A stretch of 46,460 nt of DNA from a virus. The notes beneath the pieces are model-generated. The model saw nothing but the letters and a program-made list of their open reading frames with translations, ran no database searches and was not told the DNA's origin. The DNA lies in the IMG/VR virus record IMGVR_UViG_3300034110_000369, positions 1-46,460 of that record; one strand, written 5' to 3'. This document shows positions 3,714 through 39,943 of this stretch, in pieces (the stretch's first letter is position 1; each line of letters starts with the position of its first letter). Both the position numbers and the translations under genes were made by a program.

Positions 3714-3819
3714 GGCAACGCTGGCAACGCTGGCAACGCTGGCAACGCTGGCAACGCTGGCAACGCTGGCAACGCTGGCAACGCTGGCAACGCTGGCAAC
3801 GCTGGCAACGCTGGCAACG
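3714..3819. repeat. 9-bp tandem array (GGCAACGCT)
   Basis: Nearly 12 perfect copies of GGCAACGCT. It lies in the non-coding region between the leftward promoter and the HNH genes. Because the unit is 9 bp, all frames through it stay open (GNA repeats on plus, PAL repeats on minus) but no start with a ribosome binding site reads into it on either strand, so I treat it as non-coding. Confidence 0.9.
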
Positions 3820-3879
3820 AAATAAGGCTAAGTGACTGATTTATAAAAAGAATCGGTAAGAATTTCGCAATTAATCGTG

Positions 3880-3935
3880 TTCCGATAATCGGTAATCTAG
3901 TACCGAAATCGGGTAAGAAATACCGAAAATCGGTA
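3880..3935. promoter_or_regulatory. Cluster of three operator-like dyads
   Basis: Three related 15-bp dyads start at 3880 (TTCCGATAATCGGTA), 3901 (TACCGAAATCGGGTA) and 3921 (TACCGAAAATCGGTA); spacing is 21 and 20 bp, about two helical turns, as in lambda-type operators. A lone half site ATCGGTA is at 3852. These could bind a small dimeric HTH repressor or be iterons of an origin. No convincing promoter was found within them. Confidence 0.55.
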
Positions 3936-3937
3936 AA

Positions 3938-4074
3938 ACCGGCCTGGATCGTCGTTTCAATTTTACCGGCCTGGATCGTCGCTGCCAAAAATAGGGGTAG
4001 TACAGTTGGAACAAAAAATTAGGCGTTACCTGGGTAGCATAGTTGTTTCGAAAAATTAGGCGTTACCTGGGTAG
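3938..4074. repeat. Two pairs of short direct repeats
   Basis: ACCGGCCTGGATCGTCG occurs at 3938-3954 and 3965-3981 (27 bp apart). A 24-bp element (AAAAATTAGG followed by CGTTACCTGGGTAG) occurs at 4014-4037 and 4051-4074 (37 bp apart), with a degenerate further half copy around 3994. The rest of the 3492-4091 interval outside the named features shows no gene. Confidence 0.85.
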
Positions 4075-4093
4075 TAGCGCCTTTTTAATTTTT
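4058..4093. terminator. Bidirectional terminator
   Basis: Stem AGGCG/CGCCT with an inner TACC/GGTA helix, followed on the plus strand by TTTTTAATTTTT and on the minus strand by TAATTTTT. It uses the second copy of the 24-bp repeat as part of the stem. It ends the leftward HNH gene (stop at 4092) and would stop any rightward transcript from the repeat region. Confidence 0.65.
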
Positions 4094-4859
4094 AGTTGTT
4101 GTGTTTTTTTACGTTACATTTCAGATGTGCAAGCTGTACATTTGAAAGAGTGTGTGAACCTCCGTTAGACAGAGGTAGTATATGGTCAATAGTCATTGAA
4201 TCCAAATTAGGAAATTTTAATGATTTGTCAATATCATGACCACATATCCCACACTTAGAAAACATCAACATTAGAATTGTACAATCTAAATTTTTGTCAT
4301 ACAAACTAGGATGTGACACCCTTCTTTTAGCAGAAAACGATATGTTTCGGTCTTTCTTTCTGAACTCCTTACATTTATCTGAACATTCAAGGTTGTCTAT
4401 ACCTTTATTCAGCGGTTCAAAAAGTGAACAACAAACAGAACAATTTATTTTAACAGCGTTGTTTCTTAAATATCGTGTGGCACACCTTTGACTACAATAC
4501 TTTTTTCCTTTCTCGGTAGAGTTACCACAATGAATACACTTATCATAATATTTCTCGACGGTATCACCTTCTGAGTCAGTAACATTCCCAGTTCGCCGGA
4601 TGCGATAATAATGCATCTCACAATAACCTGACTGTTTAGACCTTAGTGGTTTGTCGCAACCTTCCACCTTACATTTTTCAAATTTGACTAAAGTTGATGA
4701 AGATGATTTAACCCCTGCTGCTTCACATGCTTTTTCAAATGAACCGAACTTTCTACGGGCCATAGTCAATAAAGAAGGGTCTAATTTAGTACTGGTACAC
4801 ACACCTTTATCAGAAGATTTTAATAAGTCTGATTTGATTTTTTCGATTGTCCATTTCAT
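4092..4859 (-). CDS. HNH homing endonuclease with zinc-finger region, 255 aa
   Basis: ATG at 4859 chosen for its AGAGG site; a longer frame from 4910 has none. Residues 1-60 look like a helical DNA-binding start. Residues 63-165 hold several Cys pairs (CKVEGC, CIHCG, YCSQRC, CSVCC, CSDKC) typical of zinc-binding target recognition modules. The C-terminus is an HNH nuclease: CGIC at 203-206, DH at 225-226, N240 and a final H-C-H region. Such proteins cut a specific site and are copied into it by repair, so this is a selfish gene inserted between the packaging HNH gene and the repeat region. More AT-rich than neighbours, consistent with recent arrival. Confidence 0.85.
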   Translation of the reverse strand: MKWTIEKIKSDLLKSSDKGVCTSTKLDPSLLTMARRKFGSFEKACEAAGVKSSSSTLVKFEKCKVEGCDKPLRSKQSGYCEMHYYRIRRTGNVTDSEGDTVEKYYDKCIHCGNSTEKGKKYCSQRCATRYLRNNAVKINCSVCCSLFEPLNKGIDNLECSDKCKEFRKKDRNISFSAKRRVSHPSLYDKNLDCTILMLMFSKCGICGHDIDKSLKFPNLDSMTIDHILPLSNGGSHTLSNVQLAHLKCNVKKHNN

Positions 4860-23017: not shown

Positions 23018-23309
23018 ATCAGGTAAAACATTCAGACTTATTTTAAAAGCCCTGCACGAAATGAGTATGGGTAAAGAAGTAGTGGTTAATTGTTACCGTA
23101 TGGAAACTTCACATAGCGTTTTCAACCAGTTATTACACATGATCGAAACGTATATCAGCACTCGTGAACTCAGTATCGACTCATCAAGCAGAACACTGAA
23201 AATCACCGGCTGTAAAGGCTCATTACGTTGCGTCAGTGATACTGAAGCACAGGCTTACGTTGAACACAGAAACTCTGCGAGTTACGTCTATTATACGGAT
23301 GCACAATAA
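23010..23309 (+). CDS. Small P-loop-like protein, 99 aa
   Basis: I chose GTG 23010, which lies in the end of the previous gene with ACAGG upstream. The product starts MRRSGKTFRLILKALHEMS, a Walker A-like SGKT at the very N-terminus followed by GKEVVVNC, similar to the first strand-helix unit of P-loop ATPases, but no Walker B is visible. It may be a degenerate or minimal nucleotide-binding protein. Ends with a TAATG overlap with the polymerase. Confidence 0.55.
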   Translation: MRRSGKTFRLILKALHEMSMGKEVVVNCYRMETSHSVFNQLLHMIETYISTRELSIDSSSRTLKITGCKGSLRCVSDTEAQAYVEHRNSASYVYYTDAQ

Positions 23310-24871
23310 TGCACTACACCGGTCATTATGTTTACGACGTGGAATGTCTGCCTAACTTTTTTTCTTTCCGGTGTACGCGGTGGGAAGATAAAGCGAAGTG
23401 GTGTTATGAAATATCGGACTGGAAAAACCAAGGGTTCGAACTCTATCAATTCTTGGAACAGATTAAACATAGTCGTGGTCGCATGGTTGGTTTCAACAAT
23501 GAGAACTACGACTACCCGATGATCCACATGCTGTTTGATTATCAGGGTCGGATTAATAACGCCATTTTGTATAACAAGTCACAGGCCATTTTTGCCGCTC
23601 ATGATACTGATGACCGGTCACATTTCATATGGGCTGACCAGCGGCACATACCGCAAATCGACCTGTTTAAAATCCACCACTTTGACAACAAAGCCAAGAT
23701 GACGTCGCTAAAGCTGCTGCAATTCAATATGCGGCTAGATAACATCATTGAGCTACAACACGACTGGTCTAAGCCTGTTGACCGTCCCACGGCTGACCAC
23801 ACACTGTTTTACAATGACCACGACGTCTATTCTACCGGTATGTTTTTCGACCACAGTAAGAAACAAATCGAGTTCAGAGATCAGCTTACCGAGAAATACG
23901 GTAAGGACTTCACGAACCACAACGATACCCGCATTGGTCAGGACTTCTTCGTCATGGAGCTGGCTAAGCACGGTGTCAGGGCTAGTAAATACAACCAGAC
24001 ATACCGCCAGCAGATAAAACTTGCCGATGTACTGTTACCTTACATTCAGTTCGAGACACCAGGCTTTCAGCAGATCCACGAGTTTTTTAAACAGACCGTT
24101 ATGAATCCTGAACAGTTAAAAGGGTTCTTTGGTTCTCGTGACGCCGGTAAAACTAAGTGTACTGCCAACGTGACCGAAACGCTGGCGGCTACGATGGACC
24201 CGAATGACGTCAAGGTCTATTACACTGACGGCACTGTCAGTAAATACAGTGACCGTGACTGGTCAAAACCGGTGAAGTATTTAAGGCCGGTAAACATCCA
24301 CACCGTCGTCAATGGTTTCAGGTTTGATTTCGGTGCTGGCGGCATTCATGGTAGTTTAAGTAACGTCATAATAGATTCAGATGAAAGGTTTGCTATAGTT
24401 GACATTGACGTTGCGAGTTATTACCCGAATCTATCTATCGCAAATGATTTCTTCCCTCAACACTTAACCAAGGTATTCTGTCAGGTTTACCGGAGCATTT
24501 ACGAACAGCGTAAAACTTACAAAAAAGGCAGTGCGGAAAATAACATGCTGAAACTGGCGCTAAACGGTGTCTATGGTAAGTCTAACGATAAACACAGTCC
24601 GTTTTATGATCCTCAGTACACGATGGCAATTACGATTAATGGTCAATTGCTGTTATGTATATTAGCGGAACAGTTGATGAAAACACCTGGTTTAGAAATG
24701 TTACAAATCAACACTGACGGTATGACTTTTAAAGTTGACAGATTCTATCTGAACCATGTTGAGAACGTGTGTACATGGTGGGAGTCTTTCACTAAGCTCG
24801 AATTAGAAGGTAATTTTTATAGTCGCATGTGTATTAAGGATTGCAATAACTACATAGCTGTGTTTGAATAA
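23309..24871 (+). CDS. DNA polymerase family B, N-terminal fragment (exonuclease and palm), 520 aa
   Basis: Proofreading exonuclease motifs: YDVECLPN (Exo I, about 8-15), GFNNENYDYP (Exo II, about 61-70), YNDHDVYS (Exo III, about 167-174). Polymerase motifs: DVASYYPN (A, about 366-373), KLALNGVYGK (B, about 414-423), NTDG (C, about 468-471). The first Asp of the usual DTD in motif C is Asn here. The frame ends at CNNYIAVFE, inside a conserved block, right before a GIY-YIG gene; the thumb continues in the next polymerase gene (25554-26174). The enzyme is therefore encoded in two pieces. Confidence 0.88.
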   Translation: MHYTGHYVYDVECLPNFFSFRCTRWEDKAKWCYEISDWKNQGFELYQFLEQIKHSRGRMVGFNNENYDYPMIHMLFDYQGRINNAILYNKSQAIFAAHDTDDRSHFIWADQRHIPQIDLFKIHHFDNKAKMTSLKLLQFNMRLDNIIELQHDWSKPVDRPTADHTLFYNDHDVYSTGMFFDHSKKQIEFRDQLTEKYGKDFTNHNDTRIGQDFFVMELAKHGVRASKYNQTYRQQIKLADVLLPYIQFETPGFQQIHEFFKQTVMNPEQLKGFFGSRDAGKTKCTANVTETLAATMDPNDVKVYYTDGTVSKYSDRDWSKPVKYLRPVNIHTVVNGFRFDFGAGGIHGSLSNVIIDSDERFAIVDIDVASYYPNLSIANDFFPQHLTKVFCQVYRSIYEQRKTYKKGSAENNMLKLALNGVYGKSNDKHSPFYDPQYTMAITINGQLLLCILAEQLMKTPGLEMLQINTDGMTFKVDRFYLNHVENVCTWWESFTKLELEGNFYSRMCIKDCNNYIAVFE

Positions 24872-24898
24872 CTACATCGCAAAACAGTGAGGTAACTA

Positions 24899-25567
24899 AT
24901 GCGTCCTTGTATACATCTTAGAAATATGTCAGGCATATATATGCTCTTTAACTCTGTGAATAACAAAATTTACATCGGTAAAACACAATGTTTTTACAAG
25001 CGTTGTCACCAGTATGTTTATGACTTCAAAGAAAGGAAGATCGGACATTTGAATGACTACCTTTTCAATGCAATGAACAAACAAGGCATTGAAAATTTCG
25101 ACTTCGTACCTGTTGAATTTGTTGGGGTGAATGACCTGACTGAACGTGAATTACACTGGATACAACACTTCAAGACTACAGATAGGAATTACGGATACAA
25201 TATCAGAATGGATAGTAAAGAAGGGTTGATAACTTCACCTGAAACATCGCTTAAAATGAGTGAAAATCTCAAACGTCAATGGGCGTCAGGTGCTAGAGAC
25301 CAGCACTCTGAAAAGTTAAAAAAGTCTTGGCGTGACAATCATGAACGTAAAGCTGCTCAGTCTGCACTTTTTAGTCGATACAAAACCAAGTATGAATACC
25401 AGGTTTTCTTACCTGAAGGGGTTAAGATTTTAAACTATTCGGAACTGGTTGAGTATGGTTTGCAAACCGTTGTAGGTAGTTTCCACAGAAAGAAAACTAA
25501 TGATGTTTTTTGTAAAGGTGTCAGGGTTGTCAGGTCACCGTTAGGGGAATCAAATGAAATTGACTAA
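24899..25567 (+). CDS. GIY-YIG homing endonuclease, 222 aa
   Basis: Own ribosome binding site GTGAGG before ATG. GIY at 12-14, YIG at 25-27, Arg35 and catalytic Glu in LTERELHW (82-84) complete the GIY-YIG nuclease. Residues 113-140 (KMSENLKRQWASGARDQHSE) are NUMOD3-type DNA-binding repeats, and the C-terminus looks like a further recognition part. It sits in the middle of the DNA polymerase, with 27 nt before it and a 14-nt overlap with the second polymerase piece. No room for a group I intron core, so a free-standing gene that split its target. Confidence 0.88.
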   Translation: MRPCIHLRNMSGIYMLFNSVNNKIYIGKTQCFYKRCHQYVYDFKERKIGHLNDYLFNAMNKQGIENFDFVPVEFVGVNDLTERELHWIQHFKTTDRNYGYNIRMDSKEGLITSPETSLKMSENLKRQWASGARDQHSEKLKKSWRDNHERKAAQSALFSRYKTKYEYQVFLPEGVKILNYSELVEYGLQTVVGSFHRKKTNDVFCKGVRVVRSPLGESNEID

Positions 25568-26174
25568 GAACACTAGTGCGTCAGGTAAGATTAAGCGCAT
25601 CGGTGCCTATGCTTACGAACGTGCAGCCGAAAACGATGGTACGAGGGAATTACCTTGGCACAAAGACCAAGGTGGTATCGTCGTGGCCAAGGCCGCTGAA
25701 GCCGCATTAGTACGTGGTGAAAACATCGAACAGTTTATCCGGCGTCACTTAATGTCTCAACCAATGGATTTCATGATGCGGGCCAAAGTCAACCGTAATG
25801 ACTGGCTGTATTATGGTGATACCGAGGTGCAACGCATTACCCGTTATTTCGTCAGCAACAGTGGTGACTATCTGGTCAAACATATGCTACCGACTGCTGA
25901 TCAGAAAGCTGAATGGATTAATAAGAAATTCTGGCGTCACACGGTTAACGGTAAATTACAGATGGCAAGTAAACCACCGTCGAAACTGTGGATAGCGTGT
26001 CCACCGCCAAGCGCTGAGCCACCAATACGGACAATAGGTATCGACTCCGGCTATCGCGTTACTATCTGCAACGATTTAACCGGACTCGATATGTCTGACG
26101 TGGATATTAGTTACTACGTGGCACGGACTAGAAAGCTGGTTGATGAATTAATTCTTTCCGATAGCGCGGCGTAA
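25554..26174 (+). CDS. DNA polymerase family B, C-terminal fragment (thumb), 206 aa
   Basis: ATG 25554 lies in the end of the endonuclease gene with AGGGGA in front, so translation is re-initiated or coupled. Residues 8-23 (SASGKIKRIGAYAYERAA) continue the polymerase after NNYIAVFE: uninterrupted relatives read NYIAV...GKxKRKGAYAY. The rest (ELPWHKDQGGIVVAKAAEAA onward) is the usual C-terminal domain with KPPSKLWIACPP. Together with the 520-aa piece it should rebuild an active enzyme. Overlaps the convergent gene at 26148 by 27 bp. Confidence 0.82.
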   Translation: MKLTKNTSASGKIKRIGAYAYERAAENDGTRELPWHKDQGGIVVAKAAEAALVRGENIEQFIRRHLMSQPMDFMMRAKVNRNDWLYYGDTEVQRITRYFVSNSGDYLVKHMLPTADQKAEWINKKFWRHTVNGKLQMASKPPSKLWIACPPPSAEPPIRTIGIDSGYRVTICNDLTGLDMSDVDISYYVARTRKLVDELILSDSAA

Positions 26175-38506: not shown

Positions 38507-39943
38507 TTACGGTTTAATTGTGAATTTGATTTTACCACAGTCCCATAGTCTGCTATAACCTGCTTCTTTCATCATTTCTTTTTCTGTTTTATTGTCAGAA
38601 TAAACGTGTGGTAATTTACTCATAATGTGTTTTCTTCTGAATAAAAATTTATGGTATCTGTTACCTTGTTTGACATAACTGTAGTCAGGTGCAAGCTCTG
38701 AATCAACGGTAAAGTCTGCTTTTAAATACGAATCACCTGAATATCTACATTTGTCAAGGAACGTGAATACTTCTTTACCTGTGACTCTGAGGAAGTGTTT
38801 AACTGACTTACCTAGTGAACCGATTACGCTTGTTGAAGTGCAATGCCTGACGAGTTCGTAATTATCGCCCCGTCTAGTAAAACATGATACAGACACGAGT
38901 TCGTCACCACTGTATAAACAAACAGATTCACTGTAAACACAAGATCCTTGTATATGATTACGGTTAAGAAATTCTGCAACTATTCCTTTTGTTGGGTTCG
39001 TCACTATTTTACATTTTCTGGCGAAAACTGACTTAACATCAGATAAACCGAGTAACTGTTTAATGAATCTGATTTGTAAATCTTTGTTTTCGTTCCATTC
39101 ATTTTCCCAGATATGGACCAGTCTAAAACCAGCGTCGTTACACATTTTGGTTTTGTTTGAATGATAGTGTTTGTCCTTACCGAACTCCTCAGAGTGCCAT
39201 TTCAGGCCATTGTATTCGATGGCGATTTTCTTTTCAGGGATAACAATGTCAATTTCTAAAGGTTTAATTAACGATCTGTCAGACCGTATTACTGTTAAAC
39301 CTTCTGATTCGATTATGCTTGCGATCTCGTTTTCAGGTGCTGAAAGTCTGACAGCACACGACGGACAACCAGCCCCTGCACTGTAATGATTTTCGGCAGA
39401 TTGCAAGAAAGGACCATGTATCTTACAGATCACAGTCACTTTACTTCTGTAATGAGTGTAACTGGAAAGGTCGTATTCGTACTTGTCACCATGAACCTTT
39501 CTTGCCATTGTCATAAATTCAGAATTATTAAGTTTCTGTTTCTGCCCCGCTGACTCTTTGCCACATTTCGGGCAACCTTGACCTCGATAATGGTTTATTA
39601 ATGATTGTGAGAACAAACCATGTGTTTTACAGATGATGTCTACGTTGTCTGCGACTTTTTCATACTTTATTTTAGAGTAGTCATATCTGTCACCGTGAGT
39701 TTCCACGCATTTTGCTATTACTTCGTCAGGTTTTAGTTTTCTGGATTCAGTTTTTTTTAATTTTCCGCAAGCAGGACAACCTTGACCCGTAAGATGTGCA
39801 TTCGGTATTTGTTCAAAATCACCATGCAAAGGACAGGTTATCGTTACTTTTGATTTACTTTTGATGTAATTAGTTTTTGAGTAATCATACTTGTTGGAGT
39901 GTACGATATTAGCGGATAATATGAATGATTGTGTCTTATTCAT
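38507..39943 (-). CDS. Vsr-like (EDxHD-type) homing endonuclease with triple zinc-finger repeats, 478 aa
   Basis: AAGGA site before ATG. Three repeats of about 45 residues at 15-60, 83-128 and 150-196, each with H-x-KYDYS, V-I-C-x-HG-x-F and GxGCPxCG. These probably bind DNA. Residues 204-300 are the nuclease: ENEIASII, LEIDIVIPEKKIAIEYNG, KWHSE, as in I-Bth0305I/Vsr relatives. Residues 310-478 form a further domain (EFLNRNHIQG ... GYSRLWDCGKIKF). Inserted between capsid terminator and connector gene. AT-rich compared with neighbours. Selfish element. Confidence 0.82.
   Translation of the reverse strand: MNKTQSFILSANIVHSNKYDYSKTNYIKSKSKVTITCPLHGDFEQIPNAHLTGQGCPACGKLKKTESRKLKPDEVIAKCVETHGDRYDYSKIKYEKVADNVDIICKTHGLFSQSLINHYRGQGCPKCGKESAGQKQKLNNSEFMTMARKVHGDKYEYDLSSYTHYRSKVTVICKIHGPFLQSAENHYSAGAGCPSCAVRLSAPENEIASIIESEGLTVIRSDRSLIKPLEIDIVIPEKKIAIEYNGLKWHSEEFGKDKHYHSNKTKMCNDAGFRLVHIWENEWNENKDLQIRFIKQLLGLSDVKSVFARKCKIVTNPTKGIVAEFLNRNHIQGSCVYSESVCLYSGDELVSVSCFTRRGDNYELVRHCTSTSVIGSLGKSVKHFLRVTGKEVFTFLDKCRYSGDSYLKADFTVDSELAPDYSYVKQGNRYHKFLFRRKHIMSKLPHVYSDNKTEKEMMKEAGYSRLWDCGKIKFTIKP

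Follow-up and report, generated by a model that had tools for sequence, protein, structure and literature searches.

The closest described system is found in Aeromonas phage 25 (DQ529280), where a family B DNA polymerase (PolB), the product of gene 43, is likewise encoded by two genes, 43A and 43B, with a GIY-YIG gene, seg43(25), between them. The pieces co-purify and are active as a polymerase (Petrov et al. 2010, as summarized in the passages of PMC2988022 that deal with it), and the endonuclease may have entered a gene that was already split. The nrdA gene of Aeromonas phage Aeh1 carries an intronless homing endonuclease insertion, and its product, an essential enzyme, works as separate chains (Friedrich et al. 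2007, from the same passages). Homing endonuclease genes also mark the boundaries of exchanged DNA tracts near phage polymerase genes, in a study whose passages on the subject describe neither the site reported here nor an intronless split of a polymerase (PMC10448857). In GenBank, the Jedunavirus genomes JD001, FZ14, KpV79, and others are annotated with two DNA polymerase genes and another gene between them. No earlier description of a recurrent genes-in-pieces site was found in the Jedunavirus and Yokohamavirus literature, in a search that most subscription papers lay outside and that therefore weighs little.

The phage 25 polymerase is of the T4 gp43 type, and its break comes in the fingers, following residue 498 and ahead of motifs B and C, whereas the break in the locus described here lies between palm and thumb. 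In addition, 43B contains a group I intron, whereas no intron was detected at our locus. The Aeh1 case concerns a ribonucleotide reductase, its nuclease mobE is of the HNH kind, and it is a single case as reported in the passages cited. The Jedunavirus phages (JD001, FZ14, KpV79, and others) share both the PolB family and the position of the break with our locus, but their inserts are mostly DUF4379/T5orf172 or HNH nucleases rather than GIY-YIG.

The window analysed is the whole 46,460-nucleotide stretch of the virus record IMGVR_UViG_3300034110_000369. It encodes PolB in two genes that flank a GIY-YIG homing endonuclease gene, itself intact, and the three open reading frames are located exactly where a reading of the sequence alone had placed them. 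The features of the locus are listed here.

23309–24871, + strand: PolB N-piece, 520 residues, with the 3'-5' exonuclease, the fingers, and most of the palm; ends CNNYIAVFE, then stop
N-piece exonuclease motifs: ExoI D10/E12; ExoII N64..D68; ExoIII Y168..D172
N-piece polymerase motifs: motif A 365–373; motif B 415–423; motif C NTDG 468–471; KKRY-equivalent strand NNYIAV 513–518
24329–24871, + strand: upstream tract diverged from the intact L009 allele (dS 1.29, against 0.16–0.17 on both sides); putative co-conversion tract
24845–24877, + strand: direct repeat of AATAACTACAT (24845–24855 and 24867–24877) with a 22-nt offset; the second copy is in the +1 frame
24872–24898, + strand: 27-nt leader from the N-piece stop to the endonuclease start, with Shine-Dalgarno GAGGT at 24889–24893; no Rfam match
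24899–25567, + strand: GIY-YIG homing endonuclease gene, 222 residues; G12-I13-Y14, Y25/G27, R35, and E84 kept
25543–25549, + strand: Shine-Dalgarno AGGGGAA of the C-piece, within the endonuclease gene
25554–26174, + strand: PolB C-piece, 206 residues; its KIKRIGAY strand closes the hairpin of the palm and is followed by the thumb
25554–25567, + strand: 14-nt overlap of the endonuclease and C-piece genes

We confirm that the polymerase is a true case of genes in pieces; the kind has precedent, but the site is new and repeatedly used. In the reading that we favour, with a probability of about 85%, an intronless GIY-YIG gene was inserted by homing at the DNA for NNYIAV and split PolB; the resulting operon would be read as three proteins, the two pieces would assemble into an active polymerase, and the endonuclease would spread together with the sequence upstream of it.

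The N-piece matches the phrog_1252 DNA polymerase profile at positions 54–507 of 663 (E 1e-139), and the C-piece, whose translation carries GKIKRIGAYAYE close to the N terminus, matches the same profile at 510–652 of 663 (E 9e-21). The sequence-only reading had given all three genes a ribosome binding site. Those of the endonuclease (GAGGT at −7.8 kcal/mol) and of the C-piece (AGGGG at −6.4) are good, but that of the N-piece is weak (−3.3), and the N-piece start overlaps the open reading frame before it in TAATG. The same reading placed the split just past motif C; the split does follow motif C, but about 50 residues separate NTDG from the last residue, 520, and the break directly follows strand 513–518, the counterpart of the KKRY strand in other family B enzymes.

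Exonuclease motifs I–III and polymerase motifs A, B, and C have columns that are invariant in 60 relatives, and all of these are present in the pieces. Between split relatives, dN/dS is 0.03–0.18 for the N- and C-pieces where dS is unsaturated, a comparison that includes any time before the split. The complete set of motifs and the low dN/dS in both pieces indicate that both are most likely in use. The polymerase may be essential, and its pieces would presumably have to join in trans, as the sequence-only reading held.

The polymerase could instead be a decaying pseudogene in a phage that replicates through its primase/helicase or with host enzymes. The window does encode a P4-type primase/helicase that is related to phage primase-polymerases, and the genome paper of Edwardsiella phage PVN06, which reports that this phage lacks a DNA polymerase gene, proposes host-dependent replication (PMC8465730). 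However, PVN06 carries both polymerase pieces, with an HNH gene between them at the site that is occupied in the window (L006, 916–3618), so that its annotation can be corrected: the phage has a polymerase, in pieces. The intact relative KLEA5 has the same primase near PolB, and with motifs intact in both pieces and strong purifying selection on both among split relatives, decay of the gene is improbable.

Uninterrupted relatives had been proposed as the means to define the insertion site, and two were found. An IMG/VR contig from a near-identical phage (L009) encodes an unbroken polymerase of 727 residues, which fixes the empty site, and the more distant Aeromonas phage KLEA5 also has the polymerase as a single gene. 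The insert thus splits, without an intron, a gene that relatives carry unbroken, which bears out the genes-in-pieces reading and agrees with the parallel with Aeh1 nrdA that had been drawn for it. L009 also has a 196-residue open reading frame directly 5' of the polymerase (3815–4405) that is missing from the window.

Comparison of the window with L009 shows 92–100% identity across the first kilobase of the gene, only 49–91% per 75-nt bin at about 24329–24871, and, 3' of the split, a partly diverged first bin followed by mostly 93–100%. Synonymous divergence is 0.17 before the tract, 1.29 inside it, and 0.16 after it. The divergence is therefore limited to about 540 nt 5' of the insertion, and a tract of this sort would be expected from homing with upstream co-conversion. 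PVN06, with its HNH insert, compares in a similar way with L107, of the PEi21/MSW-3 type (95–100%, then 40–76% over about 600 nt, then 93–100%), and similar upstream tracts are seen in split/intact pairs of Jedunavirus. Two intact/split pairs, L110/L108 and L146/L148, have no clear upstream tract, so the tract is common but not universal.

The insert might be a self-splicing intron that carries the endonuclease, in which case the two coding parts would be spliced into one mRNA. GIY-YIG nucleases often reside in group I introns, and the insert matches the NCBIfam family grpIintron_endo. A related nuclease gene in Flavobacterium phage FPSV-D18 (L173, 1501–4568) lies inside motif A of a homologous polymerase after 223 nt of non-coding, intron-like sequence, and is probably in an intron. 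At our locus, by contrast, an intron has no room, as had been noted from the sequence: exactly 27 nt precede the endonuclease gene, none follow it, and its overlap with the C-piece is exactly 14 nt long. Several relatives even have a nuclease gene that overlaps the N-piece, by 4 nt. The RNA fold at the 5' junction is ordinary (z 0.10). A search of the window with Rfam gave no group I intron core around the endonuclease up to an E value of 5, and six relatives also gave nothing, whereas the known phage 25 intron was detected as a positive control (E 4e-15). FPSV-D18 gave no Rfam match either, which indicates that Rfam can miss introns. Taken with the lack of room, we consider a spliced intron very unlikely. 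An intein was also considered and rejected, since no intein domain was found among the Pfam matches of the pieces and the insert, and the frames are separate with a stop codon.

T4 gene 60 is translated by ribosome bypass. As insertion of a homing endonuclease has split that gene too (PMC2988022), ribosomes might bypass the insert here and produce one polypeptide. They would have to skip 683 nt that contain a conserved gene, and the C-piece comes with a start codon and a Shine-Dalgarno sequence of its own, with start codons kept in the relatives; bypass is accordingly an extremely improbable explanation. Separate translation, as in the reading that we favour, agrees with these signals.

The 5' junction contains the AATAACTACAT repeat of the target motif, and its second copy holds the TAA stop codon of the N-piece. 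Such a repeat occurs in 0.04% of shuffled junctions and in 2% of 68-nt stretches across the window. Most homologous GIY-YIG insertions have a similar copy at this offset, which suggests that the repeat travels with the nuclease. The second copy may have been copied from the target and serve to end the N-piece.

The insert matches the Pfam GIY-YIG family (PF01541, E 5e-10), and it aligns to the catalytic domain of I-TevI (1mk0); R35 and E84 are invariant in five homologues. As is characteristic of a homing endonuclease, its defined insertion site is empty in L009 and other relatives. A scan of IMG/VR with the single endonuclease protein gave no match; with an alignment as the query, nine full-length homologues were found, 44–55% identical, and all nine sit at the same polymerase site. 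These include cases in which the surrounding polymerase is distant: the N-pieces of L188 and L189 are only 22–25% identical to the query polymerase (23% between the window and L188) and still belong to phrog_1252, with a homologous endonuclease at the same site. Between L135 and L136, dS is 0.37 for the endonuclease and 2.1–2.4 for the polymerase pieces, and between L101 and L104 it is 0.35 for the endonuclease and 1.44 for the C-piece. A nuclease that is less diverged than the polymerase around it and is distributed at one site points to movement by itself between polymerase genes. Its target is apparently the DNA coding for the conserved NNY strand.

The intact L009 polymerase was modelled with AlphaFold2 (pLDDT 94.8, pTM 0.90) from an alignment of 60 sequences that excluded rows from annotated phage records. 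The model has the PolB fold over the whole chain and matches the structures of KOD, Tgo, RB69, and pol alpha over residues 1–725 (Z 13–15). The break falls in the loop 520–533, between strands 514–519 and 534–537. In a profile match to KOD polymerase, it aligns with KKKYAVIDEEGKITTRG, which forms the turn that follows the KKRY-type motif at the palm/thumb border. When the C-piece of the window is modelled alone, the thumb is ordered, but most of the first 39 or so residues have pLDDT below 65. This arm includes the KIKR strand, which is ordered in the intact model, consistent with the arm folding onto the N-piece. Because the modelled thumb is folded, the arm is ordered only in the model of the intact chain, and both pieces are under purifying selection, assembly of the polymerase as two chains is likely.

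A break at this position, in the hairpin that comes after the KKRY-equivalent strand, was also found in 17 other IMG/VR contigs, of which L146 and L147 may be one virus, and in 11 isolate phages that were examined (JD001, RCIP0045, SCNJ1-Y, KpTDp1, KpTRp1, FZ14, RCIP0033, KpV79, RCIP0081, PVN06, and phiAB441). Since the window comes from a metagenome, an assembly chimera or a mixture of strains could in principle have produced the split, but recurrence of the architecture in at least 11 isolate genomes and these other contigs leaves that explanation almost no weight. The split N-pieces stop a few residues past the N-[NS]-Y motif, and the C-pieces mostly begin a few residues ahead of IKRKGAYEY or its equivalent. 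Across the split loci the insert overlaps the start of the C-piece, and the start codons are retained.

The inserts are GIY-YIG, HNH_3 (in one case also with AP2), or DUF4379/T5orf172 nucleases. In RCIP0033, two open reading frames at the site resemble parts of one broken nuclease. In the Acinetobacter phage phiAB441 (L012, 1218–4060) the polymerase appears to be in three pieces: the exonuclease part, the palm part, and then, after the nuclease gene, the thumb part. Among the matches listed, gene spans show about 22 distinct Klebsiella phages with a split gene and about 24 phages with an intact one. On a tree built from the first 360 residues, which lie mostly outside the exchanged tract, the gene must have changed its state, split or intact, at least nine times, with gains and losses counted alike. 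A scan of IMG/VR with an alignment of the whole polymerase returned only intact genes, because its ranking favours unbroken matches; bacterial genomes scanned with the C-piece gave no relative. Vibrio phage JA-1 has a lone C-piece homologue (L174, 4998–5621) that is annotated as a DNA polymerase and adjoins the portal gene, with no counterpart of the N-piece within the 10.6 kb examined.

These observations suggest the following sequence of events for our locus. An intronless GIY-YIG gene entered the conserved DNA for the NNYIAV strand, as comparison with the intact relatives shows, probably by double-strand-break repair. The sequence shows that the insertion supplied the stop codon of the N-piece and, where the endonuclease gene ends, the ribosome binding site and start codon of the C-piece. 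Three proteins would then be made from the operon, with translation of the C-piece probably coupled to that of the endonuclease. In the model, the polymerase pieces meet in a surface hairpin where the palm ends and the thumb begins; most likely they join non-covalently into an active polymerase, in which the C-piece arm would complete the sheet of the palm. The endonuclease would cut uninterrupted polymerase genes of co-infecting phages and so spread with upstream polymerase sequence, as the putative co-conversion tract and the site-specific distribution suggest.

On a wider scale, we think it reasonably probable that the palm/thumb hairpin of phrog_1252-group polymerases is a landing site open to intronless homing endonucleases in general. 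The gene of the nuclease would act as a self-contained cassette, with a stop codon from the copied target, its own leader, and a downstream start site, and would have made a stable two-subunit enzyme without intron or intein in many independent events. The splitting of this DNA polymerase is no rare accident: one surface hairpin has been broken repeatedly by unrelated nucleases, at least three kinds at one spot, and the enzyme apparently survives, so that the hairpin looks like a standard, tolerated break point. Matched intact and split alleles are natural replicates of the entry of a selfish gene into important genes without intron or intein, and they also offer a way to ask at which points a polymerase can be divided into subunits. 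The window itself contains a second homing-type nuclease (phrog_559/phrog_3339, 478 residues), which is encoded on the − strand at 38507–39943 among structural genes.
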